Below are positions 25,561 through 53,259 of a stretch of 64,000 nucleotides of DNA, in pieces; positions within the stretch are counted from its first letter, which is position 1, and the number at the start of each line of letters is the position of its first letter. The DNA is from Sphingobacterium sp. R2 (GTDB lineage Bacteria > Bacteroidota > Bacteroidia > Sphingobacteriales > Sphingobacteriaceae), in contig NZ_CP142884.1 of assembly GCF_040760075.1 (NCBI RefSeq), forward strand, positions 496,001 through 560,000, read 5' to 3'. A program made the translations under genes and the position numbers. Below the pieces are notes generated by a model. It made no database searches. It was given only the letters and a program-made list of their open reading frames with translations, and was not told the DNA's origin.

Positions 25561-26034
25561 TTAGTATTGACGAAACTTTATAGAGAAAACGTACCATTTA
25601 CCTTCAATAACATGGATTTTGGGAGCAATTTGCTTTAATTTATCAATAAATTCGGCAGCATTTTCAGGATCGATGAATACATCATCAGCCAAATTATAAT
25701 GCAGTATTATACCTTTCCTATAGGGTCTCAAAATTGTAGGTCGCATTCTGCCAAACCAATCCACCTTTTCTGTCTCTAATTTACGTACCGACATGATATC
25801 CACAGATTTTATACCCCAAATACTCTTTATGAAAAGTTTATTATCTTCAATCCAATAACGTTTATAGAAGAAAGTGAAATACCAAGTTAATGCAAATACG
25901 AGAAACATGGGTAACGTGCCCGTATAGAGCCCCTTCTCAATTCCTTCATAAGATATCACTACGATGAATATGATCATGGCAATACCCCAAATATAACTAC
26001 CAAAGTTTATGTGTGTTTTAAAGACATCTTTCAT
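25561..26034 (-). CDS. Membrane protein with bacterial PH-like domain
   Basis: A 157 aa protein with two N-terminal membrane helices (about 13-30 and 38-56) followed by a soluble domain. The pattern 'RYWIEDNKLFIKSIWGIKSVDIMSVRKLE' then 'GIILHYNLADDVFIDPENAAEFIDKLKQI' resembles the membrane-associated bacterial PH (bPH) families. The role is unknown. The gene starts 21 nt after the upstream lipoprotein-like gene stop and so belongs to the tail of the locus 1 gene run. Confidence 0.6.
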   Translation of the reverse strand: MKDVFKTHINFGSYIWGIAMIIFIVVISYEGIEKGLYTGTLPMFLVFALTWYFTFFYKRYWIEDNKLFIKSIWGIKSVDIMSVRKLETEKVDWFGRMRPTILRPYRKGIILHYNLADDVFIDPENAAEFIDKLKQIAPKIHVIEGKWYVFSIKFRQY

Positions 26035-26055
26035 AACGAATGATTTTTTAATAGA

Positions 26056-26859
26056 TCAATTATTTTTATTCCAAACAGCGAGCTCTCGTCGAATTTTAAG
26101 CGGAAATAAACTATATACTTCACGATATTGTTCGAAATCTTCTTTCGTATTAACCTGAATATGATAGATATGAGGAATGACCTCGCTGTCTATATTATCT
26201 TTTAAAAAATTTAATTCTTCACGTAACAGAGCTGTTTTAACATTTGGCAACCAATCTTTTGCTAGAAGCACGTTCAATCGCTCTGAATCCTCGAATAATT
26301 TAAGATCATTGCAATGAATTGCTATTTGCCGAAAACTGTCTTTCTGTTGTCGATTTTTTGCCTTATAATAATCCAATAAAGTTAAGTATTCATTATAGAG
26401 TTTATTGTTTTCTCCATCGGATACGACCGCCATTTTAATTGATTCGCCTCCATTCTTAGCTAACAACAGTTCTTGTAGTTGCTCTTGGTGATAGACGCTA
26501 TCAAGTAACAGTTTATAATTATTGGACTCTTTTGAATCCAACCAAAATGTAGTTGACATATAATATTTTGGTGTGCCGAGCTTGGGCTGACGAGCAAATC
26601 TTTCCATCTCTTGAGGCCTTACAATATCCCTATCCCATGAAAGGATAATTTGATAGATACCTTTTTCCAAATTCTTTACTCTTAACGCAAAATTCAGAGA
26701 TCTTATCGTATCACACAACACTTTTCGCCCTGTTTTGACTTGAAAAAGATCCACATAAATAGGGGGCGAAACATTAAATTCACCGCTTAAGTTCCATGGA
26801 CCAGAAGTTTCGCAACGAGTAAACATGAGAAAAAAAGATAATAACAAGCTGTATTTCAT
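26056..26859 (-). CDS. Secreted or lipid-anchored hypothetical protein, DUF4369-like N-terminus
   Basis: I start at the ATG at 26859, which gives a signal sequence MKYSLLLSFFLMFTRC; the upstream open frame is only extra hydrophobic sequence. Cys16 could be a lipid site, but Arg at -1 is not a canonical lipobox. Residues about 20-110 ('SGEFNVSPPIYVDLFQVKTG', 'LRVKNLEKGIYQIIL') recall the DUF4369 domain found in front of thioredoxin-like proteins in Bacteroidota, yet no thioredoxin CxxC follows; the rest is helical and charged. It lies 78 nt after the DUF4302 gene and is probably an accessory of locus 1. Confidence 0.55.
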   Translation of the reverse strand: MKYSLLLSFFLMFTRCETSGPWNLSGEFNVSPPIYVDLFQVKTGRKVLCDTIRSLNFALRVKNLEKGIYQIILSWDRDIVRPQEMERFARQPKLGTPKYYMSTTFWLDSKESNNYKLLLDSVYHQEQLQELLLAKNGGESIKMAVVSDGENNKLYNEYLTLLDYYKAKNRQQKDSFRQIAIHCNDLKLFEDSERLNVLLAKDWLPNVKTALLREELNFLKDNIDSEVIPHIYHIQVNTKEDFEQYREVYSLFPLKIRRELAVWNKNN

Positions 26860-26937
26860 CAAAATTTGAATTCTTATAATCAGTATTGTCTCTATAAGCA
26901 TTAGAAACAATACTGATTTTCCGATATTAATACATAA

Positions 26938-28248
26938 TTAATTACTTAGTTTCACTAATTTTCCATAGAAAAACGAATTCGGATTATTTGTTTTTATCAA
27001 TCCTCCCACTCCTCTTACTTTGGGATCTGAACTCGCGACATAATCCAGCTTAAATTCAGCATTTTTGAAATAGCTCTTAATATCACTATGTATCCATCCT
27101 AAGTCATTTTGAACTTCGTTGGATAGTTTAATTATATTATCAGTCATTACATAATCGTAGCCGACGTCAACGCGGTAATTATAACCATTAAAAAAAAACC
27201 ACACTTCTAATTTAGCTTTTTGCGAACTAACGAGTCGGAAGGTCATGGAAACCATTTTCACACCCCATCCGTTGTAGGTATTGATTTGCTTTGCCCATAT
27301 ATCATTAAAAGCCGAATTTATGCCACCAGGCAAAGTTGCTCCATCAATTTGAATAGAATTGTAGGTGTCGCGATAACCAAAAAACGCCGTAATTGGCAAT
27401 ACAGGTACAGCGTTCGACTTAATTTCATAGGGTTTATTGGACGAATCTAATAACATAAACTTGCCATCTTGCATCTTTGCCTTTACAATCGTCAAATCGC
27501 CCAACACTACAGGCTCAGCAAAATTTAGTCCACCTAGATCAAAATTGTATTTACCAATCTTGGAAACAATTTCCTTACCTGAAATATATGTAAAAGAGGC
27601 TGTCCTACTCTCATCACTAAACGATACCGAAATCTTACTTTCTAGTGAGGGAATTTGTATATATAAGTTGGGATTAGCATCTGTATAATTTAGCAGTTGA
27701 CTTCTGCTTTTACCAAAGCCATTACTCAGATACTGTTGACTCTCACTGGCGGTTGCTTTCACCAAGATCATTGATTTCTGAAATTTACGTCCCTCAAAAA
27801 ATAACGTATCTCCATGAGTTTTAATATAATTAAACTCGATATCACTTCCCATCCCCTTTCCTGGCTGCCCATTGTAGGTAGCTGGGTTCGGATCTTCAAG
27901 CATAGTTAAATAGGTGTAGGTATCAAAAGAAAGTGTAGAAGTCATGATTTGACGTATCCGGTACGTCGACTCTTTCTCTTTTGAAGCCGTCTCTTCATCT
28001 AGATCAGCAACCATTTTCACGCGGTCATTTTTACCAAACTGCATATAAAAACCATAGGCTCCGGCATACTCGGTTACTAATGATCCCTTCCAACCATAAG
28101 GAGATTCGACAAGCATCTTTCTGACATAAGAAAGTGTGTCTGCAATACGGGAGTCAGGATCCTTTTCAAATTCCAAAGCAACTTCTTTCGGCTTATTACA
28201 ACTTACTGTCAGTAAAACCAAAAATATAACATAAAATATCTTTTTCAT
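26938..28248 (-). CDS. DUF4302 family lipoprotein (locus 1)
   Basis: A 436 aa lipoprotein: signal MKKIFYVIFLVLLTVSC with lipid Cys17. The family pattern is visible: an N-terminal 'DTLSYVRKMLVESPYGWKGSL' helix, then 'GFYMQFGKNDRVKMVAD' and 'FDTYTYLTMLEDPNP' segments, then beta-rich sequence with 'DTLFFEGRKFQKSMIL'. DUF4302 proteins are commonly encoded beside SusC/SusD pairs; function is undetermined, possibly surface substrate binding. It starts 11 nt after the metallohydrolase gene. The paralogue in locus 2 is at 37687. Confidence 0.82.
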   Translation of the reverse strand: MKKIFYVIFLVLLTVSCNKPKEVALEFEKDPDSRIADTLSYVRKMLVESPYGWKGSLVTEYAGAYGFYMQFGKNDRVKMVADLDEETASKEKESTYRIRQIMTSTLSFDTYTYLTMLEDPNPATYNGQPGKGMGSDIEFNYIKTHGDTLFFEGRKFQKSMILVKATASESQQYLSNGFGKSRSQLLNYTDANPNLYIQIPSLESKISVSFSDESRTASFTYISGKEIVSKIGKYNFDLGGLNFAEPVVLGDLTIVKAKMQDGKFMLLDSSNKPYEIKSNAVPVLPITAFFGYRDTYNSIQIDGATLPGGINSAFNDIWAKQINTYNGWGVKMVSMTFRLVSSQKAKLEVWFFFNGYNYRVDVGYDYVMTDNIIKLSNEVQNDLGWIHSDIKSYFKNAEFKLDYVASSDPKVRGVGGLIKTNNPNSFFYGKLVKLSN

Positions 28249-28259
28249 ACGGTAATTTT

Positions 28260-29243
28260 CTAGGTTAATTGGCCAAATAAGTAAGAATTCAATCTCGTAT
28301 ACCTATTCATACTCAAAGTATATTCAGTATAGAAATCAGTACAAAAAGGATCATATTTACCTGATGAAATCAATACAGAAGTATAATCCGTGCTATGATA
28401 TTCTTCAACCATGACCCTTTGAAATTCATTTTGCAATTGCGTGACGTCAATGTTAAAATACTTTATCATATAATCTCTTACAATAGACTCCTTTTCCTTG
28501 AATTTCTTATAAGCTGTTTCACCCGATTGTGATGCATAATCATCATAAAACTTTTGTCCTCGAACGACCAGATGTGAAAGTGTTTCAGCAAAGTCCTCAC
28601 CAATCGACTTACGCGCATACGGACTGATAAATCCCAAAGATCTAGCTTTTGCCTCGGTATTTTCAGCCGCAGTCCAATCTGCATAATAATCTCCTACACA
28701 GACTAAACCAAATTCGCCTGGTATAAACCGATTTTGATTTAATATGTGTGTAAATTCATGGTGTATTACCTGTAGATTTCCAATCACAGAACTGGCATCG
28801 TTATCATTCAGTCCATTGAGACCGTACAATGTAATTCTTCTTCCCCCATCTGCCGTACCTCCTTTCACAGAGCCATCAGGATCATAATCACCAGATCCAA
28901 AAAGTGCAAATTGCTTCGGCGTATAGAGTTTAATAAATTTAGAGCCGCCAATTTTACCATATACCTCTAAAAATCCCTTGAGTACGATTTTCATTTGCGG
29001 GATTACTTTCGATTCATCGGCCGGTGCTATATTTTTATTAATATCATGCATATTCCGCTGATATCTATAAATAACTTCGATGTTAAATGGATCTGTCAGA
29101 TTCGCGCTGATCCAATTGTCGATAGTACCAGGAACGAAAGTATCGTAATTTTGTAAGGTATAATTTAATTTATCTTCTTTCGAACAGGAAAAAATTAATC
29201 CAATTAGACCAATCCCTGTAAATAGTTTAAAAATGATCTTCAT
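28260..29243 (-). CDS. Substrate import-associated zinc metallohydrolase lipoprotein (locus 1)
   Basis: A 327 aa lipoprotein with signal peptide and lipid Cys20 (LIFSC). The zinc motif HEFTH gives His162, Glu163 and His166; a downstream GEDFAE (about 215-220) is a good candidate for the third ligand, Glu, as in gluzincins. This layout matches the Bacteroidota family described as substrate import-associated zinc metallohydrolase lipoproteins (TIGR04549), which sit beside SusC/SusD. It probably acts on the cell surface on a peptide-like substrate, but the substrate is not shown. It begins three bases after susD and clearly shares its transcript. Confidence 0.85.
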   Translation of the reverse strand: MKIIFKLFTGIGLIGLIFSCSKEDKLNYTLQNYDTFVPGTIDNWISANLTDPFNIEVIYRYQRNMHDINKNIAPADESKVIPQMKIVLKGFLEVYGKIGGSKFIKLYTPKQFALFGSGDYDPDGSVKGGTADGGRRITLYGLNGLNDNDASSVIGNLQVIHHEFTHILNQNRFIPGEFGLVCVGDYYADWTAAENTEAKARSLGFISPYARKSIGEDFAETLSHLVVRGQKFYDDYASQSGETAYKKFKEKESIVRDYMIKYFNIDVTQLQNEFQRVMVEEYHSTDYTSVLISSGKYDPFCTDFYTEYTLSMNRYTRLNSYLFGQLT

Positions 29244-29246
29244 GAC

Positions 29247-30716
29247 TTATCTTGGGTTTAGTTCAACACCTGCTAATTTAGCTTCCTGAGGGATTTGGAA
29301 TACCCTTCTAGGATCATCGGGTTTTAATTCAATAAATGTTTCTCGTTCATCGCTTCCTATGACATTGTGCTTGACCGTTATCCCTTTACGAATAATGTCA
29401 AGCCACCGTAGTCCCATGGACATAAATCCAACATGTTTAAATTGCAATACTGTTTTAACAAGAGCTTCTTTGTCATCAGTGACGTCGAAAAATTGCTTTG
29501 ATTTAGCCACTGTAACAGCATAATCAGTTGAATTGTAGTTGTCGATCCTATTGCGTGCAAATAAATTGAGATCAGCTAGTGCCCCGTTTACATTGCCTAA
29601 TTCGGCATAAGCTTCAGCTCGATTTAATAAAGCCTCATCTGACATTAGTACCGGAACCATTAACATAGGGAACCCTGTATTGGCGGTAGGGTTCGTTACA
29701 TACCAAAATTCCTTCCATATATAGGTTGTGTAATGTGGAGAGCCATAACTTACACCAAAATTGTAGAGCTTCGCTCCTGCAGCAGTCATGCTATTATAAA
29801 TATTTTGTACGACACTAATTCCCATAGCATAGCGATTGTCCCACCAGCGCTGATAACCGCTATACGTTTCTGTAATCAACAAATTATAGGGTTGTGTAGC
29901 CTTGGTAATCTCTGTACGGGCAGCCTCAAAGCCTAATGATTTTAAAGTTGAGTTATAAGGAACAAGCTTGCCTACATAATTACCTCCAAAAATCTTATTT
30001 GCGTTATCCACCACTTTTTGCCATTCGCCTGTGAACAGATAAAAACGAGAAGCAAAAGCATGCGCGGCTTCGGGCGTAAAATGGTACTTCGGAACATCCC
30101 ACAAACCATTCCCTTGATCCAATAAGGCCAATCCCTCTTCTAAATCTTTACGGATATTGTCATATGTAGACTTAACTGTACCTCGATCATATTGCTTTAT
30201 TAAAACCGTTTCTGGATCTTTCACATACGGTATTCCTGGAGAATCATTCGATGCATTCGATTTGAAGTCATATACTTTAGCAAAGTAAATCGCCAACATA
30301 AAATGACAATAAGCCCTGGCCACAAGTGCTTCTCCTTTATAGGCCAGAACCTCGTCACCAAAATTATTTTTTTCTATAGCTGCTAGGGCATGATTTGCTG
30401 CAGCTATTGCTTCATAACAGGAATTCCAGTACGCTGTAGGAGAGTCCGTATCATCACCTATGATATCTTTCCATTCATAAAGAGCAGGTACCGGTTGATA
30501 AATACCTCCAACACCTTTGTCCTCCACATTGTCAGAGTAGGTCTCAGCCATGGCCAATGAATTTCTTCCAGGATAGGCTGATGCCACTAATCTTTTAACT
30601 TTATCTACCGTATTGATCTGAGCACGCATATCCGGCTCTTGATCCAGATATTTACTACATCCGCTAAATAGAAAAACAGACGTTAGCAATATATATTTAA
30701 TCGTATTTAATTTCAT
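29247..30716 (-). CDS. SusD/RagB family surface lipoprotein (locus 1)
   Basis: A 489 aa lipoprotein: signal peptide with Cys20 in LFSGC, then the SusD N-terminal 'CSKYLDQEPD' motif. Tetratricopeptide-like segments include 'CYEAIAAANHALAAIEK' and 'GEALVARAYCHFMLAIYFAKVYD', and the C-terminal RagB domain ends in 'DPRRVFQIPQEAKLAGVELNPR'. SusD proteins form the lid that captures substrate over the SusC barrel. It lies 11 nt after susC. It shares general layout with the locus 2 protein but is clearly diverged, which argues for different ligands. Confidence 0.92.
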   Translation of the reverse strand: MKLNTIKYILLTSVFLFSGCSKYLDQEPDMRAQINTVDKVKRLVASAYPGRNSLAMAETYSDNVEDKGVGGIYQPVPALYEWKDIIGDDTDSPTAYWNSCYEAIAAANHALAAIEKNNFGDEVLAYKGEALVARAYCHFMLAIYFAKVYDFKSNASNDSPGIPYVKDPETVLIKQYDRGTVKSTYDNIRKDLEEGLALLDQGNGLWDVPKYHFTPEAAHAFASRFYLFTGEWQKVVDNANKIFGGNYVGKLVPYNSTLKSLGFEAARTEITKATQPYNLLITETYSGYQRWWDNRYAMGISVVQNIYNSMTAAGAKLYNFGVSYGSPHYTTYIWKEFWYVTNPTANTGFPMLMVPVLMSDEALLNRAEAYAELGNVNGALADLNLFARNRIDNYNSTDYAVTVAKSKQFFDVTDDKEALVKTVLQFKHVGFMSMGLRWLDIIRKGITVKHNVIGSDERETFIELKPDDPRRVFQIPQEAKLAGVELNPR

Positions 30717-30727
30717 AATATAATTAT

Positions 30728-33700
30728 TTAGAATCCTAACTTCACCGATAATGTAATTTGCTTAGGCACTGGAAGAGCGACACCTCCATTGCTGTAAAAC
30801 TCTGGATCCACGCCATTCAATTTCCTATCAGCATGTAATAGCCATAAATTATTGCCCACTAGATTAAATTGAGCAGTCCTGAATTTTATACGTGACACCA
30901 ATTCCTTGGGTACGTTGTAGCCTATAGAAAGTTGAGACAAACGGATATAATCACCTTTAGCCACTCGTTCAGATGAATAGTTATAAGCATTATACGTGTA
31001 ATTAGCAGCATTCCTTTCGCCTAAAAAGTTCTTAACATCGAATTCGGCGGACAAAGGATCAAGTGTCGACGGGATTACGGTTAAATATTCATCCCCATGA
31101 AAAATAAAGCGATTTACGAGATCTTTCGATACATTGTACATATCCAAGTAAGACGATGAATAACTAGGTTGTAATCTGACCTTATTACCAAAAGCAAATT
31201 TCAGTAAAAAAGAAAAACTGAAATTTTTATATTCCACTCGGTTATAATAACCACCGGCTATGGTCGGATCTACTGGTCCTTCATATTTCAAGAAATCTGT
31301 TTCATTATCTTGAAGCCAAAAATAGGTCGTTCCGGGCGTACCGTCAGTACCAATGAACATCGGATAACCGCTTCTCGCATTAAGCTTATCGAAATCAATG
31401 GAGTATAATCCGCGATGCGGATTTCCAAGTTTAGCTCCCCCCTCCGCGGACACCAAATCCCAAATATTTCTGGTAACATTCAGCTTAGTAATTTCGGTTC
31501 TATTGTACCCAAATGTAAATTGCGTTCTCCATGTAAAGCCTTGCGGATCTTTAAATGGATAACCTCCAATTTGAATATCCACACCGTGGCTTTTCATATC
31601 CGCGTAATTACCATATTTCTCAAATTGACCTCCTATTCCTGAGGTTCGGATAGGACCAATCAGATCAAAAATATTCCTTTTGTAATAATCAACATTCAGA
31701 TCTATTCGGTTCTTTAAGAAACTCAAATCGGTACCAACATTGAGCTCATACATTTTTTCCCAAGTCAGCTCCGAATTTTCTAAACCGCTAATATTTATCT
31801 TCCCCTCTTTTTCTGACTCGTACGGCCGATAAGCCACTGCATTGTAAAACACTGCAGATGAATTTGAAGCATTCCCCATATTGGCGACTAGGCCATATGT
31901 ACCGCGCAAACGTACATGAGAAAGAATATTACTATTCTTATTAAAAAAATTCTCTTGATCAATATCCCAGGCTCCCGATATATTCCAGGTTGGCAACCAC
32001 CGTGCGACGCTTGTGTGTCCCATTTTATTGGAGCCATCATATCGTGTGGTAAAGTTCAAAGAGTATTTATCTTTATAATTATAAGCTCCACGGACTGCAT
32101 AAGCTAACTTTCGATCGTAATTGTAGGCCATTCCGAAGGGTACATTTCCACTTTCAATAGCATACTTATAATACCGATAAGTAGGCATAACAAGATTTCC
32201 ATTATCATATTCGATGCCTGGGCCATTAAAATCATGGTTTTGCTTATCGGCATACTGCAATTCATAGGTTCCAAATAAATTTAAACTATGATCATTCCAT
32301 TTTTGATTATATTCTAAATTATGTCGCATGTAATAGCTAATCATATTATTGTTAGCGACATTAAAGAATCCTCCATTAGGCAATAGAACATATTTATCTG
32401 TATTCGGAAAATCCGGATCGGCATATAAAAAGCGATTTCCTGCATTAACGGTTTGATCGCCATTTGCCCGATACGCTTTCGACAAATTTGCATTTTCTGT
32501 TATCGTATGCTGTCTTTCTGAATTATAATAACGGTACATTCCATTTGCAGAATAGGTTAAGGAAGGTAGAATTTTGTAAGTTATCCCTCCTTGCACCTTG
32601 ATATCCATCAATTTAAGTTTGATATAGTTATTATCAATTTCATTTAAGATATTAAAAGGGGCATAATCTCGATTGAAATATTCCAAGTTTCCGTTTTCAT
32701 CATAAGGAGTGATGATACGGCTAGTATTAAGAGAATAAGAGTATGGATTAATATCAAAATCACGCGAGTAAGTCCCGAAAACAGCATCTGAAACTCTATT
32801 TAAAGTACCTGGTGTACGCTGATCGCGGATATTACTTTGAAAAATGAATTCCGTACTTAGTTTATCACTAATTTTATAATTGTTTCTAATATTGCCCGTA
32901 AACCGTTTCGCGCTATTACCTATTGTAAAACCGGAATCGTTCATAAAACTCGTAGAAGCATACGTTTGGCTCTTGGTAGTCCCGGTAGACATACTTAAAG
33001 AATGATCATGAACCAGAGACTGTTTAAATAATAAATCAAACCAGTCGGTATTGACATTCGTATAACGCTGTAAAAAATTATAGCGTGAAGGAGCATCATT
33101 TCTCAGATCAAAAGAATCCGTAGCTGGATTATACTGATACATGAGATTATACATCTTATTAAAGACTCCGCCTGTAGGAGAACGGGAGACTTGCGAATGA
33201 TTCAAGTAACCTTTATTTTCCATATCAATAATTAATTGCATCTGTTGCGCAGAATTCATGATATCGAACTGGCTATAATTGGGTTTTATATAGGTTGTAA
33301 AGTTGCCTGAATAATTAAAGTTAACAACTCCCTCAGTATTACGTCCTTTCTTCGTATTTACCACGACTACACCGTTCATTGCTGCTGCACCATACATCGC
33401 TGTTGCAGCGGCATCTTTCAAGACCGTGATCGACTCAATATCATCGGGATTCAAGCCCGCTACAGAGGACCCCAGTAAGGTATTTGCATCACCAGTGGAT
33501 AATGCTTCGTTGGAGATATTGACAGCCTCATCCAAAATAACTCCGTCGATCACCCATAAAGGTTTATTATCTCCCGTTAAGGAAGTTGCCCCACGAACCC
33601 GGATTTTCGGAGCCGCACCAAATGTACCAGAGACGTTTTGCACAGAGACACCTGCCGCTTGCCCTTCCAGCATCCTAGAAATATCTGGAACACCGGCACG

Positions 33701-34429: not shown

Positions 34430-34502
34430 ACATTTACACTTTGTGGTTAATTGGGGTTTAATTGTTCACTTTTTAATTTAGGACCTGATAATCACATTTT
34501 CT

Positions 34503-34530
34503 GAACAGGGATGCGCCAACATTCCTGTTC
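34503..34530 (-). promoter_or_regulatory. Hairpin in the fecR-susC intergenic region, locus 1
   Basis: GAACAGG/CCTGTTC arms (7 bp) flank a short loop in the 173-nt gap. The same position in locus 2 (45253-45280) keeps the core ACATTCCTGTTC and surrounding sequence, though one pair is lost. No T-run follows on the coding strand. Confidence 0.45.
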
Positions 34531-34602
34531 TCTTTTCTAAGGTCTTTTGGGTAGGTATTAATTTGTCATAAGCAATCGGTTTGGGTTTAGTTCAATATTA
34601 TT

Positions 34603-35760: not shown

Positions 35761-35793
35761 ATACTACACTAAAGAAACGCAAGACAAAAAAAG

Positions 35794-35802: not shown

Positions 35803-35806
35803 GAAT

Positions 35807-37607: not shown

Positions 37608-37649
37608 AATAAAGTAAAAGACATCCCCAACATTCAGTTGGGGATGTCT
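37608..37649 (-). terminator. Strong intrinsic terminator of locus 2
   Basis: A perfect 13-bp stem (37619-37631 with 37637-37649, AGACATCCCCAAC and its complement) with a 5-nt loop is followed on the minus strand by a TTTTACTTTA tract. It lies 38 nt after the DUF4302 stop at 37687. Confidence 0.85.
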
Positions 37650-37686
37650 CTGTTTAACAACTAAAATTGGCTTAACAATATTGTTA

Positions 37687-38979
37687 TTAGTTATTTAACG
37701 GATCATTAATATCCTTTAAGAAAACCCTAAATGTGTTCGTTGGAATAGCAATATCAGTTAATAATACTGATGACGGTTCACTCAGCTCATCTGCTGTAAT
37801 TTTGAATGTACGTCCACTCAGTGGTGTTGTAAATTCATTTAATCCACCAGTCCAGTAAGCCGCACTAAAGCCTACACCCTCATATAATGTGCCTGCAAAA
37901 ATTATTCTGACTTGATCTATCGTTCCAGGTACAAGCGTAATATTGTGTCCTACAGCTCCTTCAACAGCTCCATTCTGAAGAACATAGTATACGACTTCCA
38001 CTCCTGCATTTCCAATGTACATGTTATTTAAGGTAATACCGTTGGCATTCAGCTTAGTCCTTGCATTGTTCCAATATACTTGACCAGTAGGGCCAACATT
38101 ACTATAAGACATGGACCATAGATTAGTTTTAAACCATAAATTAATTGGGGTTACATCAGGAACAATCTTAAATGTATTTCCTTTATCCGAATAATATCCA
38201 TAGGGATAGGCACTTGTTGGCTCAATATAATTTAAATGATCAAAGCTTGCCCCCGCCATTGTATATTCTTCATAGAACTCAAGCCCACCAGGCACAACGC
38301 GAAAAGCCATTTCCTTAGCGGCCTGATCAAGCGGATTGGTAAAGACACGAATTTTGGGACTATACCCCATAGGTACAACTTTACCATCCTTTGTTTCCAA
38401 ATTAAATACGCCAAATTGCTTAAACTTAGCCGCTGCCTCTTGATAAGCTTTAGACTCGGTTTCAAACTCGCCATCTTTCAAAGGTAACATCACTAAGTAA
38501 CTACCACTTTTCTTACCTTTCAAAACCACGGAGTCTGCGCTTGCATTAAGTACAATGAATTCAAAATCACCACGCATACCACTATCATCGGCACCTATCC
38601 CACCGTTATCTTTACCCGGCTCAGAAAACCAGTGAATGTTTTTATTGTAACCGTTAAATGTTAATACAGGTCCCGATTCCGGAGAAACTGCGTATGAACT
38701 GGTCTGTGATCCAGAAAAAGGATCAGAAGCGACCGTAACTTCAGCATTGGATATGAATTTACTAAAAACTGTATACCCTCCAAATTCCTGATTATTACTT
38801 GGATAAAACTTCATTATCCAACCAGCTTTATTTGCTTGCAAAACAGTATAGGTTTTTTCTACAGCCTCGGTCATCCTAACTGTTGCATTCGCATCAAATA
38901 TCCGATCCTCGTCTCGCTTACATGAAGTAACTAACAAAAACGGAAGTAATATTAAGACAATTAAATATTTTAATTTCAT
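37687..38979 (-). CDS. DUF4302 family lipoprotein (locus 2)
   Basis: A 430 aa lipoprotein with signal peptide and Cys20 (LLVTSC). It shares the family layout with the protein at 26938: an early 'VLQANKAGWIMKFYPSNNQEFGGYTVFSKF' segment, a central 'SADSVVLKGKKSGSYLVMLPL' segment and a C-terminal beta-rich region with 'FTTPLSGRTFKITAD'. The sequences have diverged widely, so the two loci are not a recent copy in this gene. It starts six bases after the metallohydrolase gene and is followed by the locus terminator. Confidence 0.78.
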   Translation of the reverse strand: MKLKYLIVLILLPFLLVTSCKRDEDRIFDANATVRMTEAVEKTYTVLQANKAGWIMKFYPSNNQEFGGYTVFSKFISNAEVTVASDPFSGSQTSSYAVSPESGPVLTFNGYNKNIHWFSEPGKDNGGIGADDSGMRGDFEFIVLNASADSVVLKGKKSGSYLVMLPLKDGEFETESKAYQEAAAKFKQFGVFNLETKDGKVVPMGYSPKIRVFTNPLDQAAKEMAFRVVPGGLEFYEEYTMAGASFDHLNYIEPTSAYPYGYYSDKGNTFKIVPDVTPINLWFKTNLWSMSYSNVGPTGQVYWNNARTKLNANGITLNNMYIGNAGVEVVYYVLQNGAVEGAVGHNITLVPGTIDQVRIIFAGTLYEGVGFSAAYWTGGLNEFTTPLSGRTFKITADELSEPSSVLLTDIAIPTNTFRVFLKDINDPLNN

Positions 38980-38985
38980 GATTCC

Positions 38986-39876
38986 TTATTTTAAAGATGT
39001 TTGATCAAAATTAGGTAGATCCGCTTGCCTCGCTAGAATCTCATCACGTAACTCATCTAAGTTAATATTCCAAACATTCTGGAAATAAGTACGTACGATG
39101 TCAAGTTTAGCCTCAATCAATGCTTTCCCTTCCTCTCCTCCTCTACTGATACGCTGGTTCCATTGTGCTGGCGACAATGTAATATAAAAGGAGTAAGTCT
39201 CTACAAAATCTTCATTGGGTTCTTTGGAAGCATATGGAGAAACGAACCCCAATGCGGTAGCTTCTGCTTCACTCTCATAGACATCACTCCAGGCATCGGA
39301 TACATAACTCCTACCTGTAATCTGTTCAAAAGAAGCGGGATACCCTTTAGTCTGATGTAAAATATGACCAAACTCATGATGCATAGTATGGAAGTATGTA
39401 TTATTTAAAAAGGCAATATCCTTTCCTGTGTTGGCATCCAATTTATTCAACAGATAGAGGGTAATCTTAACCCCACCTTCCGCTGTTCCCAATACAAATG
39501 TTCCATTATTTCGATAAGCCGGTGAACCAATGTAATTCAATAATTTTGGAAAATATTTCCGAATAAAATCCTTACTACCAGTGATTTTATCATAAGGCTC
39601 AATACCGAGATGATATAATAATTTGGTCATTCTGACGGAACTTTCATAACTTGCAGGACTCAAATTATAATCTAAATCAGACTCCTTTTCAACAAATTTA
39701 TAAAGAATTGCAATATTATAATCCTTCGTATAGGTTTGATCTATATAATTGTCCAGTTCATTTTTTTCCACTTTCTGATCCACAAATATACTTTCAGGGT
39801 TCAGCTTTTCTTCAGAGCACGAAAATAAGAGCACCGAAGAAAACAACAATACATTAATCTTATTTAATATTTTCAT
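38986..39876 (-). CDS. Substrate import-associated zinc metallohydrolase lipoprotein (locus 2)
   Basis: A 296 aa lipoprotein (Cys20 in LLFSC). The zinc motif HEFGH gives His167, Glu168 and His171, and NEDFVE (about 221-226) matches the candidate third-ligand motif of the locus 1 protein. The segments before (GTAEGGVKITLY) and after ('EATALGFVSPYASKEPNEDF') align with GTADGGRRITLY and 'ARSLGFISPYARKSIGEDF' in locus 1. It likely binds zinc and cleaves a surface-captured substrate. It begins two bases after susD and six before DUF4302, so the three are one transcript. Confidence 0.85.
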   Translation of the reverse strand: MKILNKINVLLFSSVLLFSCSEEKLNPESIFVDQKVEKNELDNYIDQTYTKDYNIAILYKFVEKESDLDYNLSPASYESSVRMTKLLYHLGIEPYDKITGSKDFIRKYFPKLLNYIGSPAYRNNGTFVLGTAEGGVKITLYLLNKLDANTGKDIAFLNNTYFHTMHHEFGHILHQTKGYPASFEQITGRSYVSDAWSDVYESEAEATALGFVSPYASKEPNEDFVETYSFYITLSPAQWNQRISRGGEEGKALIEAKLDIVRTYFQNVWNINLDELRDEILARQADLPNFDQTSLK

Positions 39877-39878
39877 AA

Positions 39879-41474
39879 TTATCTTGGATTAGGTGTGTAA
39901 CCGGCGGCAATAACTTCAGCAGGAATTTGCAAAGCCGCCCTTTTGTCACGCGCAATTAATTTTGTATCTGTTTCTACGGAAGCTACTGCACCAGAAGAAC
40001 TCAATACACGTCTTTCTACTTCAATACCATAGCGTTTAACATCAAACCAACGCAGTCCCATATGAAGAGTTTCTACACGACGTAAAAACAACAGTGCATG
40101 GAGCATATTCTCCTGTGTACCAACCTCAAATGGAATCATCTGCGGATTCAATGCTTTCTTTGCTGTGGGTGATTGAGCAGAAGAATAATCTATTCCATTT
40201 GCCCATGTATTGATACTAGCTACCGTAAAGTTTACTGGCGGTCTTACTAGGGTATTGTCAACCCAACGTTTCATATCGACCGCAGCATCATCGTATCGTT
40301 TCAGGTGAATAAGAGCTTCAGCACGAACCAGCATCGTTTCTTCTGTAGTAAATGGTACATAAGCACCACGGGCATATCCAATTCCTGCGACAGGGTCTGT
40401 ATACTCGAACATATACGAAACACGGGGAAACAATACTTTATCTAAATTTGTTCCCGCATAAACAGAAACACGTAGTACATAGCCAGTTGCACCTAATTTC
40501 CCATAAGGCCCTTGCGCCATGGCTGTTTCATTGTTTGCCAAAAATGCGCCATGGGAATATCTCGAACCATAGGTATAGGGGCCAAATATTACACCATGTT
40601 GCGTTGCGGCAGTCGCTACCATTAAATTGGCCTTTTCTTCACTTTTTGTATAAGATATTGCTCCATTTGGAAATCCTCTGCTCCCTACTGCGTCAGCGGC
40701 AATCCTTTCATAATTACGAAGTAAACTCGTTGGATTCGTTCCAATCGCTGCATTGGCAAAACTGACGGCTTTTTCCCAATCTTGCATATATAGGGCGACT
40801 CGAGCGCGTAAAGCGTTTGCAGCCCTAGAGTTCATATGATATTTGGGGGTGGATCCGAACGAAGAATCATCAATCAGCGGAATAGCTTCATCTAGATCAG
40901 CTACGATATAGTCATATACTTCCTGGACTGTATTCCGTTCATATTTCGGGTCGAGATCTTCCTCTGCGGTGGTCATATAAGTAACTCCTAAATCTGTTGC
41001 CGCATTTGCTTTCGTATAATGCTGCGCAAATAAATTAACGAGTGTAAAATGATTATAGGCTCTTACAGCCAAGGCTTCTCCTTTTTGAGGATTTAAACTG
41101 GCCGGATTCCCCATTTCTTCGATTGCTTTTAATGCCGCATTTGCACTAGCAATCGCTTTATAACAAGCTTCCCAGACGTCTTTAGGTCCCTCATCCTGAT
41201 TGTCTGTAACATCTTTCCAATGGAACAACTCTTCCATAAAACGCTGACTATTGGGATTGGTAGGGCCATAATCATCGACATTATCTGATGATAGTTCAGC
41301 ACTCATCAAATAGGCCACCTCTGGATAAGCCGAGACCAACAACTTATCAATTTTAGCCTCAGTATCAAGTGTTGCACGATTGTCAGGCATTTCATCTAAA
41401 AACTTATTGCAGGATGATAAACCCAAGCCACAAATCAATGCAACTGCTATATATAATTTTCTATTTCTTTTCAT
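39879..41474 (-). CDS. SusD/RagB family surface lipoprotein (locus 2)
   Basis: A 531 aa lipoprotein with Cys22 in LGLSSC and the SusD hallmarks: 'CNKFLDEMPDNRATLDT' after the lipid Cys, 'CYKAIASANAALKAIEEMG', the repeat-like 'GEALAVRAYNHFTLVNLFAQHYTK', and a C-terminal 'DKRAALQIPAEVIAAGYTPNPR'. It forms the substrate-capturing lid over the adjacent SusC. It is 42 residues longer than the locus 1 SusD, with extra sequence in the middle, which fits recognition of a different ligand. The gap to susC is 24 nt. Confidence 0.92.
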   Translation of the reverse strand: MKRNRKLYIAVALICGLGLSSCNKFLDEMPDNRATLDTEAKIDKLLVSAYPEVAYLMSAELSSDNVDDYGPTNPNSQRFMEELFHWKDVTDNQDEGPKDVWEACYKAIASANAALKAIEEMGNPASLNPQKGEALAVRAYNHFTLVNLFAQHYTKANAATDLGVTYMTTAEEDLDPKYERNTVQEVYDYIVADLDEAIPLIDDSSFGSTPKYHMNSRAANALRARVALYMQDWEKAVSFANAAIGTNPTSLLRNYERIAADAVGSRGFPNGAISYTKSEEKANLMVATAATQHGVIFGPYTYGSRYSHGAFLANNETAMAQGPYGKLGATGYVLRVSVYAGTNLDKVLFPRVSYMFEYTDPVAGIGYARGAYVPFTTEETMLVRAEALIHLKRYDDAAVDMKRWVDNTLVRPPVNFTVASINTWANGIDYSSAQSPTAKKALNPQMIPFEVGTQENMLHALLFLRRVETLHMGLRWFDVKRYGIEVERRVLSSSGAVASVETDTKLIARDKRAALQIPAEVIAAGYTPNPR

Positions 41475-41498
41475 TTCAATTACGATTTAAAATTTTGG

Positions 41499-44400
41499 TT
41501 ACAAGCCTAAACGTAAGGTCAATGTATATTGTCTCGCAATTGGAGCAGCTACCCCTCCAGCATTGACAAACTCCGGATCTTGTCCATTCAGCTTTTTATC
41601 CGCATAAATCAAGAATAAATTGGTTGCATTAAAACGTAATCCTAAGGAGTTAATATTCCACGCTTTCACTAAATCCTTCGAGAATTCGTAGCTTAATGAA
41701 ACATCTTTCATGCGAATGAAATCACCTTTCGCCGTACGCACTGACGAATAATTATAGGCACTATAAGCATACTTTAAATCATTCGCGTATGCTCTGTTCT
41801 GTCCAGTCGTAGCAATGATAGGTACATTTGTGAAGGCTTCATCTCCCGCCACCATCCAGCGGTCCGCAAACTCCTTGGTTGATGCTGTCAAATCTGAATA
41901 TTCGTTGGAAAATACGGGATTAAGTCGTACAACATTACCAAATGAATAAGTAATAAAGACATTTAAACCAAAGTTTTTATAATTAAACATATTGCCCAAA
42001 CTTCCTGTATGAATAGGATCACTTGGCCCTTCGTATTTTAAAAAGCCAATTTTATCCCGTTCTTGAAAATTTAAATCCGTAACAGTTTCCTGATTATTTG
42101 TATTTAAAAAGACCGGCAATCCTTCATCATTCAATCGTACGAATGGTATCGAGTAGAGTCCGCGAACGGGGCCTCCTTCTAGGGCAAATCCAGTACCTGT
42201 GATGAGATCCATCACTTGGCTTCTAGTGTCCAAACGCGTCACCTTTGTTTTCACATTAGAATAAATAAAGTTTGACGTCCATTTAAATGCCTGATCGCGA
42301 AAGATATGGCCAGTTAGGCTCAACTCAGCTCCGTGCGATTTCATATCAGCCACATTACCAAATTTAGAAATCTGCCCGCCTAACCCTTGGGTATTGATAA
42401 TACCGATCAAATCAAAGTTATCGCGTTTAAACCAATCAAAATCTAGATTTATCCGATTATCTAAAAATCCCATGGACGTTCCGATATTCAACTCATGCTT
42501 TTTTTCATAAGTCAAACCATTGTTGGCCAAATCCGCTATTTCTAAACCAGATTCGGCATCTCCCGCCGTAGGGCGCCATGGAGTGTAGGAACGATAAACC
42601 GCATACGAATTAGTGACAGTCGATGGTCCTCGATCACCAGTTAAACTATAAGAGCCTTTTAAAGTAAAATGTGAAAAAGCAGGTTTCAAGTTTTCAAAGA
42701 AGTTTTCTTCATGTGCATTCCATGCTCCGGACAGGTTCCAGCTAGGCATCCATCTCGCAGAGGTTGCTTCACCTAATTTATTTGCACCCTCATATCTAAA
42801 TGTACCATTCAATGTATATTTCCCTGCATAGGAATAGGTCACATTTGTAAAAAAAGCAGCTTGTTTGTAACGCGTATTTGAAGGGTCATTTTTATTGTTC
42901 CGGTTGACGGAAAAATAAGGTGAATTCTCTTCTTGACCACGCTTAAACACCCTATAATCGGTAAAAGGACTTTCTCCTAAATCATATTGGATTCCCCAGC
43001 CTCTAAACCAGGTATTGTTGCGTTGCGATGAGGTAAGTTCGGATCCAGCAAACACATTAAGAATATTGTTTTGATCAAAGGTCTTATTATATTGAGCAGT
43101 AAAACGGAATAGCTGCTCAAACATGGTGTAGTCAGTCCGATTATAAATTCCACCTTCTGGTAATACCGAAATAGGTCTTGCATAAGGATCATCCGGATCG
43201 GTATACAGGAAAGGATTTTTATCGCGAATGGTCGTATTTTCGGGCTCTGAGATACCCGCGCGATAAGCCATTGCTTGGTTCGAACGATCCTTGATATAGT
43301 GGTGCTGAGTCGTAGACTGATAGCGAACTGAACCAAAAGCTCCTAACTCTAAACCAGGAATAACTTTCCATTTCAAATCCCCTTGAAAACGTAGATCAGC
43401 GACATCAATATCCATATAATTGTTTTCCAATTCATGCAGAATATTAAACCCAGCGTAGTTACGGGTGTAGAAGGTATTTGGATCTAACGTACGCGATGTA
43501 TTCATCGCATATGCATATGGGTTAATATCAAAGTCACGCTTTACTTGGCCAAAGACCACATCTTTAGATTGACCGAGGGTACCGGGTGCCTGTTGTTTAC
43601 GATATGACCCATTGGTAATAATATTAAGCTTAAGACGATCTGAAATATTATAATTAGCATTCAAGTTTCCAGTATAGCGATTCACTTTACTACGTTTCGT
43701 CCAGCCCGGATCTACAAGACCACTAATGGAAGAATAATATTGCGATTTTTCAGTTCCAGAAGACATACTCACAGAATGGTTATGCTGTAAGCTTGGTTGA
43801 AACAGTTGACCAAACCAATCTGTATTTCGAAATTCAGCTTCTTTAAGGAAGTTATTGACATGATGTCTATCGGTGAACAGATCATTTGGGATCTCGCTTC
43901 GTTGGATGCGCCTATATAAATCGCCATAAACGCCACTATTACTAGCAACTGGTAAATCAGCAAATCCAATATATCCTTTATTGTACATGTCGTCGTATAC
44001 AGACATTTGCTCCTGCGAATTCATAATATTGAATTCAGAATATCGAGGTGTCGCACGCGTCGTGTATTCTCCTGTATAGTTAAGCGAACTGCGACCAGCT
44101 TTACCTTTTTTAGTCGTAATGACGATAACTCCTGCCATAGCTCGCGCTCCATAAATTGAGGTTGCCGAGCCATCTTTTAAGATCTGAAAGGATTCGATAT
44201 CATGCGCGTTTAGACCTGCTACTGCAGAACTTATTAACGTTAATGCATCACCAGATGACAGTTCATCTGAGTTTACGTCCGCAACATCCTCTATAATTAC
44301 TCCATCAACGACCCAAAGTGGCTTTGAGCTTCCATAAATAGAAGTTGCCCCACGGACACGGATTTTAGGTGCTGTACCGAAAGTTCCCGTTACGTTCTGA

Positions 44401-45179
44401 ACCGAAACCCCAGCAACACGGCCTTCTAGGCCACGACTGGGATCAATCTGCCCCCCAATTTGGGCCGCTTCGCCAGAGATTTGAGAGGTAGCTCCGGTAA
44501 ATAAACGTTTATCAAGACGTTGTCCCATACCAGTTACAACAACTTCTTCAATCTGCTTTTCATTTGACGCTAAAACAATCGCAACATTGCTTCGCCCTTT
44601 AACAGCAACTTCGGCAGTCTCATAGCCAACATAGCGAACAACCAAAGTGGCATCTGAACCAGCATTTATTCGAAAGCTACCATCAGCTGCTGTCTGCGTA
44701 GTAATATTTGTCCCCTTCACGGACACTGTGGCTCCCGCTAAGGTGCTCCCTTCTTTACTCCTGACTGTCCCTGAAATCCCTTGCTGAATTATATTGCTAG
44801 ATGCATCGCCTTTAGTTTTACCATTTACAGATATCGTATTCGCAATAATCTTATAATCGATATGATTATTGCGCAAAACAGAATTCAAGGCTTCTTCAAC
44901 AGAGGCATTCTTCAAATTCACACTGACACGTGCTTTAGAATCGATATTTTCTCCGTAAAATAGCTGCAGGTTGGACTGCTTGGAAATCGCACTGAGCGCT
45001 TCTTCAATCCGTGCATTTTTCATTTTCAACGTAACTTTCTGCGCAATGCCGTTGGCTTGAACTCCGGTCACAAAGGCGAAAAGAAGGCAGGTACTAATTT
45101 TCATAATACGTAAAGGTTTACAAAACCGAGGGTCATGAGGTATCAGTCGCCACGTTTTGCCAAATGGTAAGTTATTCAT
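41499..45179 (-). CDS. SusC/RagA TonB-dependent receptor with STN domain (locus 2)
   Basis: A 1226 aa outer-membrane receptor with the same layout as the one at 30728: signal region to about 47, STN domain about 48-118 ('VTLKMKNARIEEALSAISKQ'), a carboxypeptidase-regulatory-like domain, a plug with 'KQIEEVVVTGMGQRLDKR', 'RVRGATSIYGSSKPLWVVDG' and 'ILKDGSATSIYGARAM', then a TonB-dependent barrel ending LTLRLGL. The first 70 residues are nearly identical to locus 1, while the extracellular barrel parts differ much more. It should transport substrate and signal through its STN domain to the adjacent FecR. Confidence 0.95.
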   Translation of the reverse strand: MNNLPFGKTWRLIPHDPRFCKPLRIMKISTCLLFAFVTGVQANGIAQKVTLKMKNARIEEALSAISKQSNLQLFYGENIDSKARVSVNLKNASVEEALNSVLRNNHIDYKIIANTISVNGKTKGDASSNIIQQGISGTVRSKEGSTLAGATVSVKGTNITTQTAADGSFRINAGSDATLVVRYVGYETAEVAVKGRSNVAIVLASNEKQIEEVVVTGMGQRLDKRLFTGATSQISGEAAQIGGQIDPSRGLEGRVAGVSVQNVTGTFGTAPKIRVRGATSIYGSSKPLWVVDGVIIEDVADVNSDELSSGDALTLISSAVAGLNAHDIESFQILKDGSATSIYGARAMAGVIVITTKKGKAGRSSLNYTGEYTTRATPRYSEFNIMNSQEQMSVYDDMYNKGYIGFADLPVASNSGVYGDLYRRIQRSEIPNDLFTDRHHVNNFLKEAEFRNTDWFGQLFQPSLQHNHSVSMSSGTEKSQYYSSISGLVDPGWTKRSKVNRYTGNLNANYNISDRLKLNIITNGSYRKQQAPGTLGQSKDVVFGQVKRDFDINPYAYAMNTSRTLDPNTFYTRNYAGFNILHELENNYMDIDVADLRFQGDLKWKVIPGLELGAFGSVRYQSTTQHHYIKDRSNQAMAYRAGISEPENTTIRDKNPFLYTDPDDPYARPISVLPEGGIYNRTDYTMFEQLFRFTAQYNKTFDQNNILNVFAGSELTSSQRNNTWFRGWGIQYDLGESPFTDYRVFKRGQEENSPYFSVNRNNKNDPSNTRYKQAAFFTNVTYSYAGKYTLNGTFRYEGANKLGEATSARWMPSWNLSGAWNAHEENFFENLKPAFSHFTLKGSYSLTGDRGPSTVTNSYAVYRSYTPWRPTAGDAESGLEIADLANNGLTYEKKHELNIGTSMGFLDNRINLDFDWFKRDNFDLIGIINTQGLGGQISKFGNVADMKSHGAELSLTGHIFRDQAFKWTSNFIYSNVKTKVTRLDTRSQVMDLITGTGFALEGGPVRGLYSIPFVRLNDEGLPVFLNTNNQETVTDLNFQERDKIGFLKYEGPSDPIHTGSLGNMFNYKNFGLNVFITYSFGNVVRLNPVFSNEYSDLTASTKEFADRWMVAGDEAFTNVPIIATTGQNRAYANDLKYAYSAYNYSSVRTAKGDFIRMKDVSLSYEFSKDLVKAWNINSLGLRFNATNLFLIYADKKLNGQDPEFVNAGGVAAPIARQYTLTLRLGL

Positions 45180-45252
45180 ACATTTACTCTTTGTGGTTAA
45201 TAGGGTTTACTTAATTCGCATTTTTAATTTTTTAGGCCTTTTAATCATTCCG

Positions 45253-45280
45253 GAACGGGGATGCTGCAACATTCCTGTTC
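45253..45280 (-). promoter_or_regulatory. Counterpart of the fecR-susC intergenic hairpin, locus 2
   Basis: GAACGGGGATG and ACATTCCTGTTC occupy the same place as the hairpin at 34503-34530. One base pair in the stem is lost here but the ACATTCCTGTTC arm is identical, so the sequence may matter more than the fold. Confidence 0.4.
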
Positions 45281-45333
45281 TTTTTTTGTATAAGGCTCGT
45301 AGGTTAGGTATTAATTTTTCACATAAGCACTTT

Positions 45334-46473
45334 TTATTTATTTTCTATAATTAATTCTTTTCCGTGAAGTTCAAACTTCAAATCACAAACATAGGTCAGC
45401 ATTTCCAAAACTTGCGATAGCTTGACATCACGCTTAAAATTACCTGTGTACACTTTATTCAACGCGACATCTTGCTTAAATTTTACCTGGATGTCATACC
45501 ATTTCGAAAGCGTGGAAGCGATCTCCACAATTGTCTCTTTCTTAAAATAAAACTGATTATTATGCCAAGAAAGATCATGCTCTAAATCTGCCGTTCCTTT
45601 ATGAAGCTGGCCAGCAATAAGGTTGGCATATTCTCCAGGTTCCAGAATGATCACATCTCCCGAGTTACTTACTTGTACTCTTCCGGAAGACAATGTCGTT
45701 CGAACATTATTACTATAAGCATTGATATTGAAATGTGTACCTAACACCTTCACTTCATTCCCCTTGGATTCTACAAAAAATGGACGCTTGGCATCATGGG
45801 AAACTTCAAAATAAGCTTCACCCTCCAAAATAACACGACGTTCTTTATCGGGAAATTTTACAGGAAATTTAAGTTGAGAGTTTGCGTTCACCCAGACTTG
45901 GGTACCATCTTCTAAAGATAATTTGTAAAAGTTTCCTTTGGGAACAACCAATGTATTAAATTGCAATAGTACGTCTTCTGTCGGAACGTCCAGGCGAGCC
46001 ATATTATCTGCAACGAATTTTGGATCTACAGTTTTGTGCGTCTTCTCCAAAGGCATAATCGATCCATCAGCCAAAACCAATAGAGCCCCCGACTCTGCAG
46101 GTGAGATATCTGTTTTTACCAAACGAGCAGATGATGCTTGACTAGAAACTATTCCTTCCTCATGGAGGATATAAAAGAGCGACGTCGCCATTATTATTAA
46201 AATAACGGCTGCAGCACCAAAAAGAGAAATGTAATTTTTCTTAACTCTCTTTGGGGTCCGCTGAATGTTACGCCAAGCAACATTTTCATCCAGATTATCT
46301 AGAAAGGTAAGATCTCCCTCTATATTCTTTGCGTCCTGAAAGCTTTCAATTAAATCATCATTGCGCTTATCAGATTTTCGCCAATGTTCAATTGCATCCC
46401 GTTCCGCTATGGTTTCGTGACCTCGAAGCAATTTATTAATGAGTCTGGCAATGTAATTGGTGTTGGTGTTCAT
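45334..46473 (-). CDS. FecR family anti-sigma factor (locus 2)
   Basis: A 379 aa protein with cytoplasmic N-terminus (1-80), one membrane helix (about 81-103), a periplasmic FecR domain ('VLADGSIMPLEK', 'LEDGTQVWVNANSQLKFPVKF', 'GEAYFEVSHDAKRPFFVES', 'LGTHFNINAYSNNVRTTL') and a DUF4974-like end ('TGNFKRDVKLSQVLEMLTYV'). It should hold the sigma factor at 46526 inactive until the SusC STN domain signals. A 7-bp hairpin (46476-46497) directly precedes the start codon and may affect translation. Confidence 0.92.
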   Translation of the reverse strand: MNTNTNYIARLINKLLRGHETIAERDAIEHWRKSDKRNDDLIESFQDAKNIEGDLTFLDNLDENVAWRNIQRTPKRVKKNYISLFGAAAVILIIMATSLFYILHEEGIVSSQASSARLVKTDISPAESGALLVLADGSIMPLEKTHKTVDPKFVADNMARLDVPTEDVLLQFNTLVVPKGNFYKLSLEDGTQVWVNANSQLKFPVKFPDKERRVILEGEAYFEVSHDAKRPFFVESKGNEVKVLGTHFNINAYSNNVRTTLSSGRVQVSNSGDVIILEPGEYANLIAGQLHKGTADLEHDLSWHNNQFYFKKETIVEIASTLSKWYDIQVKFKQDVALNKVYTGNFKRDVKLSQVLEMLTYVCDLKFELHGKELIIENK

Positions 46474-46475
46474 AT

Positions 46476-46497
46476 CTATAGGTTAGAAACCCTATAG
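46476..46497 (-). promoter_or_regulatory. Hairpin directly before the locus 2 fecR start
   Basis: CTATAGG and CCTATAG arms (7 bp, 8-nt loop) end two bases before the ATG at 46473, where they could cover the ribosome-binding region. Locus 1 has no equivalent. Confidence 0.35.
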
Positions 46498-46506
46498 AAT
46501 GGCGAA

Positions 46507-46515
46507 GGGTGACAA
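46507..46515 (-). promoter_or_regulatory. TTGTCACCC motif shared by both sigma-fecR junctions, locus 2 copy
   Basis: Identical in sequence and in its distance of 33 nt to the fecR ATG with the motif at 35794-35802. The distance to the sigma stop differs between the loci, so its position is tied to fecR. Confidence 0.4.
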
Positions 46516-46525
46516 TAAATTAAAA

Positions 46526-47047
46526 TTATTTTAACAAAAAAATAATAAGGGGTAAAAACTCGGGATGTAGCTTCTCCATCAAGATTTTCATCCCACGTTG
46601 TTTTTGGGTCTTAACTGTGTTTACACTAATTTGAAGTCGTTCTGTAATTTCAAGATTTGACAACCCCTCCAAATAGCCCATCTTAAAAATCTGTTGACAA
46701 GCCGAAGGCATTTGGGCAATAATTCGATAAACTTCATTGATCACTTCGGTATGAATAATGGAAAGCTCAACGGAATGCTCATCTTCCTCATTGAATTCAA
46801 CCCGCGTCCAATACTTTTCCTTTACTTTTTCATGACGTAAATGCTTTAAACAAGAAAACCGCACAGCAGTATATAAATAGTTTCGCACAAACGCTTCGGA
46901 TTCATCCATCCGCTGTTTTTCTCTGAAAAAGGTAACAAAGGCTTCCTGTACCAGATCTTCGGCAACAGAAGATTCTCCCACAAATTTCCATGCAAAATGA
47001 CATAAACTTTTATAATGCTGTCTAAATAACTTTTCTTCAGGTCCCAT
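46526..47047 (-). CDS. ECF-type RNA polymerase sigma-70 factor (locus 2)
   Basis: A 173 aa sigma factor with region 2 ('CHFAWKFVGESSVAEDLVQEAFVTFF', 'VRNYLYTAVRFSCLKHLRHEKVKEKYW') and region 4 ('LSNLEITERLQISVNTVKTQKQRGM') almost matching the locus 1 factor, including the recognition helix INTVKTQKQRGM/VNTVKTQKQRGM. The near identity there suggests that both factors may read similar promoters. It heads locus 2, divergent from the mrp operon. Its region 1 is absent, as usual for ECF factors. Confidence 0.93.
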   Translation of the reverse strand: MGPEEKLFRQHYKSLCHFAWKFVGESSVAEDLVQEAFVTFFREKQRMDESEAFVRNYLYTAVRFSCLKHLRHEKVKEKYWTRVEFNEEDEHSVELSIIHTEVINEVYRIIAQMPSACQQIFKMGYLEGLSNLEITERLQISVNTVKTQKQRGMKILMEKLHPEFLPLIIFLLK

Positions 47048-53252: not shown

Positions 53253-53259
53253 AGCTTGA

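Follow-up and report, generated by a model that had tools for sequence, protein, structure and literature searches.

Apparent separate inheritance of sensing and import modules in two tandem TonB-dependent importer loci of Sphingobacterium sp. R2

In Riemerella anatipestifer, the genes B739_0103-0098 are homologues of icsC-icsH of the iron capture system (ICS), B739_0101 is annotated as a TIGR04549 product and the cluster is upregulated in low iron (PMC5429918, whose naming of the ics genes is followed here). B739_0103 is repressed by Fur in the same organism (PMC7976709). In the present study we analyzed a stretch of 64,000 nucleotides of Sphingobacterium sp. R2 (the window; positions 496001-560000 of its single-contig 5.35-Mb genome) that contains two tandem loci with a gene order related to that of the ICS. 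With a probability of roughly 0.7, these loci encode two ICS-like TonB-dependent importers in which sensing and import modules are inherited separately and reassort at a domain boundary of SusC, the ligand being, by inference, of the kind captured by iron capture systems.

Two linkage blocks at the tandem loci

A six-gene order consisting of an extracytoplasmic function (ECF) sigma factor, FecR, a SusC with an STN domain, SusD, a TIGR04549 hydrolase and a DUF4302 protein occurs twice, head to tail, on the minus strand between 25561 and 47047, and we call the upstream locus (37687-47047) slot 1 and the downstream locus (26938-36334) slot 2. Two such copies had been described in an earlier note on this DNA, and its assignments were confirmed by profile searches, in which the hydrolases scored 245 and 334 bits with TIGR04549 (cut-off 75) and the DUF4302 proteins 136 and 164 bits with PF14135 (cut-off 27), and by domain matches for STN on both SusC proteins and for an ECF sigma factor and a FecR at each locus. 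Both SusC proteins (592 and 586 bits with TIGR04056; cut-off 368) also contain CarbopepD_reg_2 and plug domains, and each is encoded next to a SusD family protein in which PF14322 was found, as in SusC/SusD importers. At either locus, the ECF sigma factor, a FecR with its C-terminal domain and the transporter carrying STN are adjacent in a FecIRA-type layout. Throughout the genome, genes for TIGR04549 and DUF4302 proteins are confined to these two loci. On our proposal, a regulator module, fixed to its chromosomal slot, would comprise the ECF sigma factor, FecR, the fecR-susC leader and residues 1 to about 120 of SusC (signal sequence and STN), and a cargo module would comprise the part of SusC that starts with the carboxypeptidase-like or plug domain, SusD, the surface zinc metallohydrolase and the DUF4302 lipoprotein. 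Three classes of cargo occur in the genus (A, B1 and B2); slot 1 of the window holds B1 and slot 2 holds A.

Two linkage blocks, junctions that recur at domain boundaries and a cargo that lies in different slots of sister species are observed at these loci. Pairwise identities among 25 slot loci are correlated within a sigma/FecR/STN block (rho 0.79-0.86) and within a block formed by the carboxypeptidase-like domain, plug, barrel, SusD, hydrolase and DUF4302 (rho 0.52-0.91), compared to a rho of only 0.03-0.24 between the two blocks. The limit between them lies inside SusC, between STN and the carboxypeptidase-like domain; with all 58 loci of the genus included, it moves to the border of the carboxypeptidase-like domain with the plug. 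Within SusC, change points concentrate at residues 118-124, 137, about 212 and about 355, and BLAST homology to independent genomes stops at the same sites, that is at 44821 (residue 119), where homology of the slot 1 SusC with other slot-1 loci also ends, and at about 44555 (residue 208). Slot-type STN domains in 94 genomes of the genus form two tight groups (88-100% and 76-82% identity), after which identity falls to about 61%. Alternative SusC/D units behind one control region are also known from site-specific SusC shufflons such as region EE of Bacteroides fragilis, where receptor genes behind a shared promoter are switched by inversion or by a recombinase (PMC5729914), and the working would be similar. 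However, both window loci point the same way, no inverted repeats were found where the susC genes start, the annotated open reading frames (ORFs) include no recombinase gene, and the junctions lie within the coding region at domain boundaries. A shufflon operating by inversion was rejected on these grounds and is extremely improbable.

The closest genome among those compared, G040, has 96% DNA identity over window positions 52200-62200, whereas the next genomes reach 85-92%. The cargo A of slot 2 in the window is 99.4% identical over 26450-33980 (about 7.5 kb) to a cassette which, in this sister species, is located in slot 1. The cassette spans 26482-33934 with outer limits at 26334 and 34013, and both junctions are sharp: the 5' junction falls between 33934 and 34013, corresponding to SusC residues of about 139-165, and the 3' junction is placed at 26334-26482, within the gene for a putative lipoprotein (26056-26910, minus strand) which is assigned to no family and is recurrent 3' of cargo A. 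On either side of the tandem the two genomes are 96-98% identical, whereas between the flanks nearly everything outside the cassette shows 50-85% identity. The regulators match slot to slot (79% for slot 1 and 76% for slot 2) while the cassette switches slot, and position is therefore tracked by the regulators, not by the cargo. The mobile part might instead be the regulators, if other strains had supplied new sigma-FecR-STN blocks by conversion or transfer and the cargo was stationary. Their identity of 76-82% to the sister species, far under the genome background of 96%, is in agreement with this view and indicates replacement of the regulators in one lineage at least. In contrast, cargo A nonetheless does not occupy the same position in the two species, and the regulators have kept their slot identity across at least 10 species at one site, which makes moving regulators an unlikely explanation for the whole pattern.

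A tree built on sigma, FecR and SusC residues 1-128 places ten slot-1 loci, bearing cargo A, B1 and B2, in a single clade (support 100) and the slot-2 loci, bearing cargo A and B2, in its sister clade; cargo class switches 6 times along this tree. In the cargo tree, A, B1 and B2 cluster by class regardless of slot. Approximately unbiased (AU) tests rejected a grouping of window slot 2 with slot 1 of G040 on the regulator data (p 6e-36, likelihood gap 627 units) and slot 1 as a single clade on the cargo data (p 7e-70, likelihood gap 6041 units); these p-values are rough because the groups were named after the first trees had been inspected, and the likelihood gaps are large. Loci were drawn from the genus, its family and three further families. 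A tree of the concatenated core splits into three deep groups: cargo B is joined by loci of family f11, cargo A by those of family f2, and the third group is formed by the Flavobacteriaceae including Capnocytophaga. As cargo A and cargo B belong to separate deep groups, the two cargos of the window are not sisters, unlike their regulators.

The earlier note had proposed one old tandem duplication of the entire six-gene locus, in which selection kept the signalling part and the ligand parts diverged. The equal gene order, an identity that declines steadily from sigma to DUF4302 and the sister relationship of the regulators would all be expected from such an event, and an old duplication can be retained for the regulatory part. 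For the cargo it was rejected by the regulator, cargo and core trees, of which the first two are in strong conflict: A and B fall into separate deep clades that also include loci of other families (the upstream cargo with family f11, the downstream cargo with family f2), an outcome that the note itself had named as refuting, six changes of cargo class occur on the regulator tree and a 99.4% identical cargo occupies different slots in sister species. As judged from these trees, the duplication holds for the regulators only, and duplication of the whole locus is very unlikely. A recombinational exchange of the ligand half describes the data better than constrained signalling next to a changing ligand part.

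Between slot 1 and slot 2, amino-acid identity amounts to 62% for sigma, 49% for FecR, 48% for SusC, 36% for SusD, 35% for the hydrolase and 23% for DUF4302. Within SusC it is 85% for residues 1-60 and 70% for residues 61-120. The signalling parts had been called nearly identical, which is adequate for the helix-turn-helix of sigma and for SusC residues 1-60 but not for FecR. At identical residues the codon is also shared in only 36-48% of cases; synonymous sites therefore look saturated, and the likeness of the SusC starts is an old one that selection has maintained, not the product of recent copying. For the same reason, we rejected a recent gene conversion between the window copies. Each sigma is only 20-36% identical to the other 23 FecR-linked sigmas (the genome has 25 FecR systems), as compared to 62% between the two. 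Cross-talk between the loci, as raised in the earlier note, would be plausible.

Genes, leader hairpin and surroundings

All features of the two loci are encoded on the minus strand. Slot 1 begins with the ECF sigma factor (46526-47047; 173 amino acids, TIGR02985), which is followed by the FecR anti-sigma regulator (45334-46473; 379 amino acids, PF04773 and PF16344), the leader hairpin (45252-45281) and SusC (41499-45179). From the change points and the end of homology at 44821, residues 1 to about 120 of this SusC (45179 to about 44820) are attributed to the regulator module and the remainder to cargo B1, which continues with SusD (39879-41474; 531 amino acids), the TIGR04549 zinc metallohydrolase lipoprotein (38986-39876; 296 amino acids, HExxH at residues 167-171 and EDFxE at 222-226) and the DUF4302 lipoprotein (37687-38979; 430 amino acids). 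An intrinsic terminator-like site (37617-37651) closes the locus. Slot 2 consists of the ECF sigma factor (35807-36334; 175 amino acids), FecR (34603-35760; 385 amino acids), the leader hairpin (34503-34530) and SusC (30728-34429), whose N-terminal part belongs to the slot-2 regulator module and whose remainder belongs to cargo A, together with SusD (29247-30716; 489 amino acids, PF14322 and PF07980), the TIGR04549 metallohydrolase (28260-29243; 327 amino acids) and the DUF4302 lipoprotein (26938-28248; 436 amino acids).

The leader hairpins of slot 1, GAACAGGAATGTTGCAGCATCCCCGTTC, and slot 2, GAACAGGAATGTTGGCGCATCCCTGTTC, belong to a structure which sits in the fecR-susC gap of nearly all loci of the genus, with GCAG as the loop of slot 1 and, in most cases, GGCG as that of slot 2. 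In an alignment of 20 sequences, 9 of the 11 pairs vary on both sides, pairing holds in 82% of cells as compared to at most 43% when the alignment is slid, and the covariation score is 0.41 as compared to at most 0.19, where the paired percentage is biased upward by selecting and trimming sequences around the predicted hairpin and the compensatory changes are less affected. Strong matches to the hairpin model in the genome are the two window loci only, and the hairpins of the remaining STN-SusC leaders are unrelated in sequence. Read on the opposite strand, the hairpin precedes a run of T and has the form of an intrinsic terminator, and the leader hairpin is possibly the end of an antisense RNA. 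Antisense RNAs of the DonS type in Bacteroides offer a comparison. No Rfam family was matched in the window, and alignments of the regions upstream of the sigma genes from slot 1 and slot 2 revealed no clear common operator.

Between both loci lies a gene for a predicted outer-membrane protein of 220 amino acids (36846-37508), present in a few congeners only, with a terminator-like site after it (36683-36715). Genes for an Mrp-type Na+/H+ antiporter (47473-50264) directly adjoin the tandem, and the same flank is found at the site in many congeners, which would mark it as a shared place of exchange.

Lipoproteins, ligand and proposed mechanism

TIGR04549 is present in 53 of 61 genomes of the genus, and 22 of 395 genomes across the phylum pass the cut-off. 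At all 83 tabulated loci the genes for SusC, SusD, TIGR04549 and DUF4302 proteins occur in this order, accompanied in most but not all cases by sigma and FecR, and the same core was found in loci of Capnocytophaga, Sinomicrobium, Joostella, Polaribacter and Cellulophaga. From the gene order in Capnocytophaga we infer that icsF encodes the DUF4302 protein. By analogy with the ICS, an iron-related ligand would be a sensible starting assumption for the window loci. Flanking genes in Flavobacteriaceae were considered as a further clue to the ligand and discarded, as those read by eye (for ribonuclease HII, short-chain dehydrogenase/reductase and LysR-type proteins) are apparently unrelated.

In the hydrolases, residues C20, H167, E168, H171, E222, D223 and E226 are invariant, including the lipobox cysteine and HExxH, and the active-site residues are intact in both window copies. 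Relatives of the cargo B1 hydrolase in the PDB are 9urd and 4l7a. Class A hydrolases bear a C-terminal domain of about 150 amino acids, homologous to the one at the C-terminus of DUF4302 proteins (hhalign 98.2%, E 3e-14; 0.2% for SusD as a control). The class A hydrolases of the window and of G040 both lack this domain of their near relatives and share the same aberrant tail of 40 residues (window 28260-28400); since the loss is common to both, it is older than the exchange. Similarly, B2 DUF4302 proteins (about 270-290 amino acids) lack their C-terminal domain. In an AlphaFold2 model of the cargo B1 DUF4302 protein (mean predicted local distance difference test score 71), both parts resemble lipocalin- or calycin-like barrels, with matches to fibrillin 5 (Z 9.2), ToxS (Z 8.0) and lipocalins (Z 3-7). 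Naming a ligand from this fold was rejected, the barrel resemblance being too weak. Arrays of 2-5 DUF4302 lipoproteins follow the hydrolase in Capnocytophaga (L186:10858-20838, L187:10856-17249 and L190:10877-13520), which suggests a surface-binding role for this family.

The cargo might import a peptide or a modified protein fragment instead of an iron source, with the hydrolase serving as a trimming peptidase; a peptide-like substrate had been suggested in the earlier note. The hydrolase belongs to the Peptidase_Mx1 family with HExxH and EDFxE intact, and the solved SusCD relatives RagAB and BfUbb-ButCD bind proteins or peptides, but are only distantly related. On the other hand, the ICS relatives are iron-regulated, and an iron-protein ligand might need a peptidase too, so that trimming is compatible with an iron-related ligand as well. 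We consider a peptide ligand possible, though less likely than not; this view bears on the ligand and not on the mosaic history.

For the ICS-like importers proposed here, an extracellular ligand would be bound and trimmed by the DUF4302 lipoprotein, SusD and the hydrolase, and would then be imported via SusC/D. STN, FecR and sigma would probably work as in FecIRA systems, with ligand-occupied SusC signalling via STN to its cognate FecR and sigma and so leading to more susC transcription. Recombination at the boundary between STN and the carboxypeptidase-like domain would give a slot a new ligand specificity and preserve signalling, because STN would move with its own FecR and sigma, and the mosaic would result from homologous recombination within the conserved leader and the beginning of SusC. 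A wider, rather doubtful extension of this idea is that the site flanked by the Mrp antiporter gene and the TonB/acs genes might be a standing exchange site in the genus. Sensor slots (sigma, FecR and STN) would persist there, while importer cassettes of the three cargo classes would keep being swapped through recombination at domain boundaries of SusC, possibly inside populations too, in the manner of SusC shufflons but without inversion.

Several findings weigh against the combination of mobile cargo and an iron-capture-like ligand. The trees are equally expected under repeated transfer that replaced the regulator half as under movement of the cargo. Among the 94 genomes of the genus no near-identical donor was found for the slot-1 regulators or for cargo B1. 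The Capnocytophaga proteins of 206 and 205 amino acids encoded downstream, which are icsG and icsH by position only, were without a phmmer match in the set of window ORFs that was searched; therefore, the window loci share the core of the ICS but are not filed as ICS. A Fur box of the Riemerella type was not found in the window at up to 3 mismatches. Finally, the DUF4302 gene BT3961 of B. thetaiotaomicron is down and not up in low iron, so that the DUF4302 family is not uniformly iron-related and the ligand may differ among clades.

The natural sequences mark cut points in SusC at which signalling and import would remain separable, namely directly following STN, or following the carboxypeptidase-like domain or the plug, and the signalling specificity of STN/FecR/sigma systems becomes directly testable through simple domain swaps. 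Assigning a substrate from sigma and FecR or from the SusC N-terminus would mislead at such loci. Linking the common but little-studied four-gene core with TIGR04549 and DUF4302 to the ICS provides a first experimental ligand hypothesis.

Comparison with described systems

The window loci share with the ICS of Capnocytophaga canimorsus and R. anatipestifer (B739_0098-0103) the core order icsC-D-E-F, seen in Capnocytophaga loci L172 and L186-L190, and a SusCD pair accompanied by surface lipoproteins. In contrast to the ICS, they have their own sigma and FecR, are two in number and fall in two other deep clades of the core. The closest solved SusCD is BfUbb-ButCD (PDB 8ypt/8ypu), which gave the best full-length SusC sequence match and the best SusD fold match; as only a distant relative it was rejected as a member of this family, and the SusC proteins of family f11 TIGR04549 loci are likewise without a close match. 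With FecIRA-type signalling both window loci have in common the order of sigma, FecR and a SusC carrying STN, whereas here the STN domain and the regulators are inherited as a module apart from the plug and barrel of the transporter. The Bacteroides SusC/SusD shufflons, including region EE and the nutrient receptor shufflons, also place alternative SusC/D units behind a shared control region; the exchange in the window differs in that it is seen between species and not as phase variation, and in that its junction lies inside SusC.

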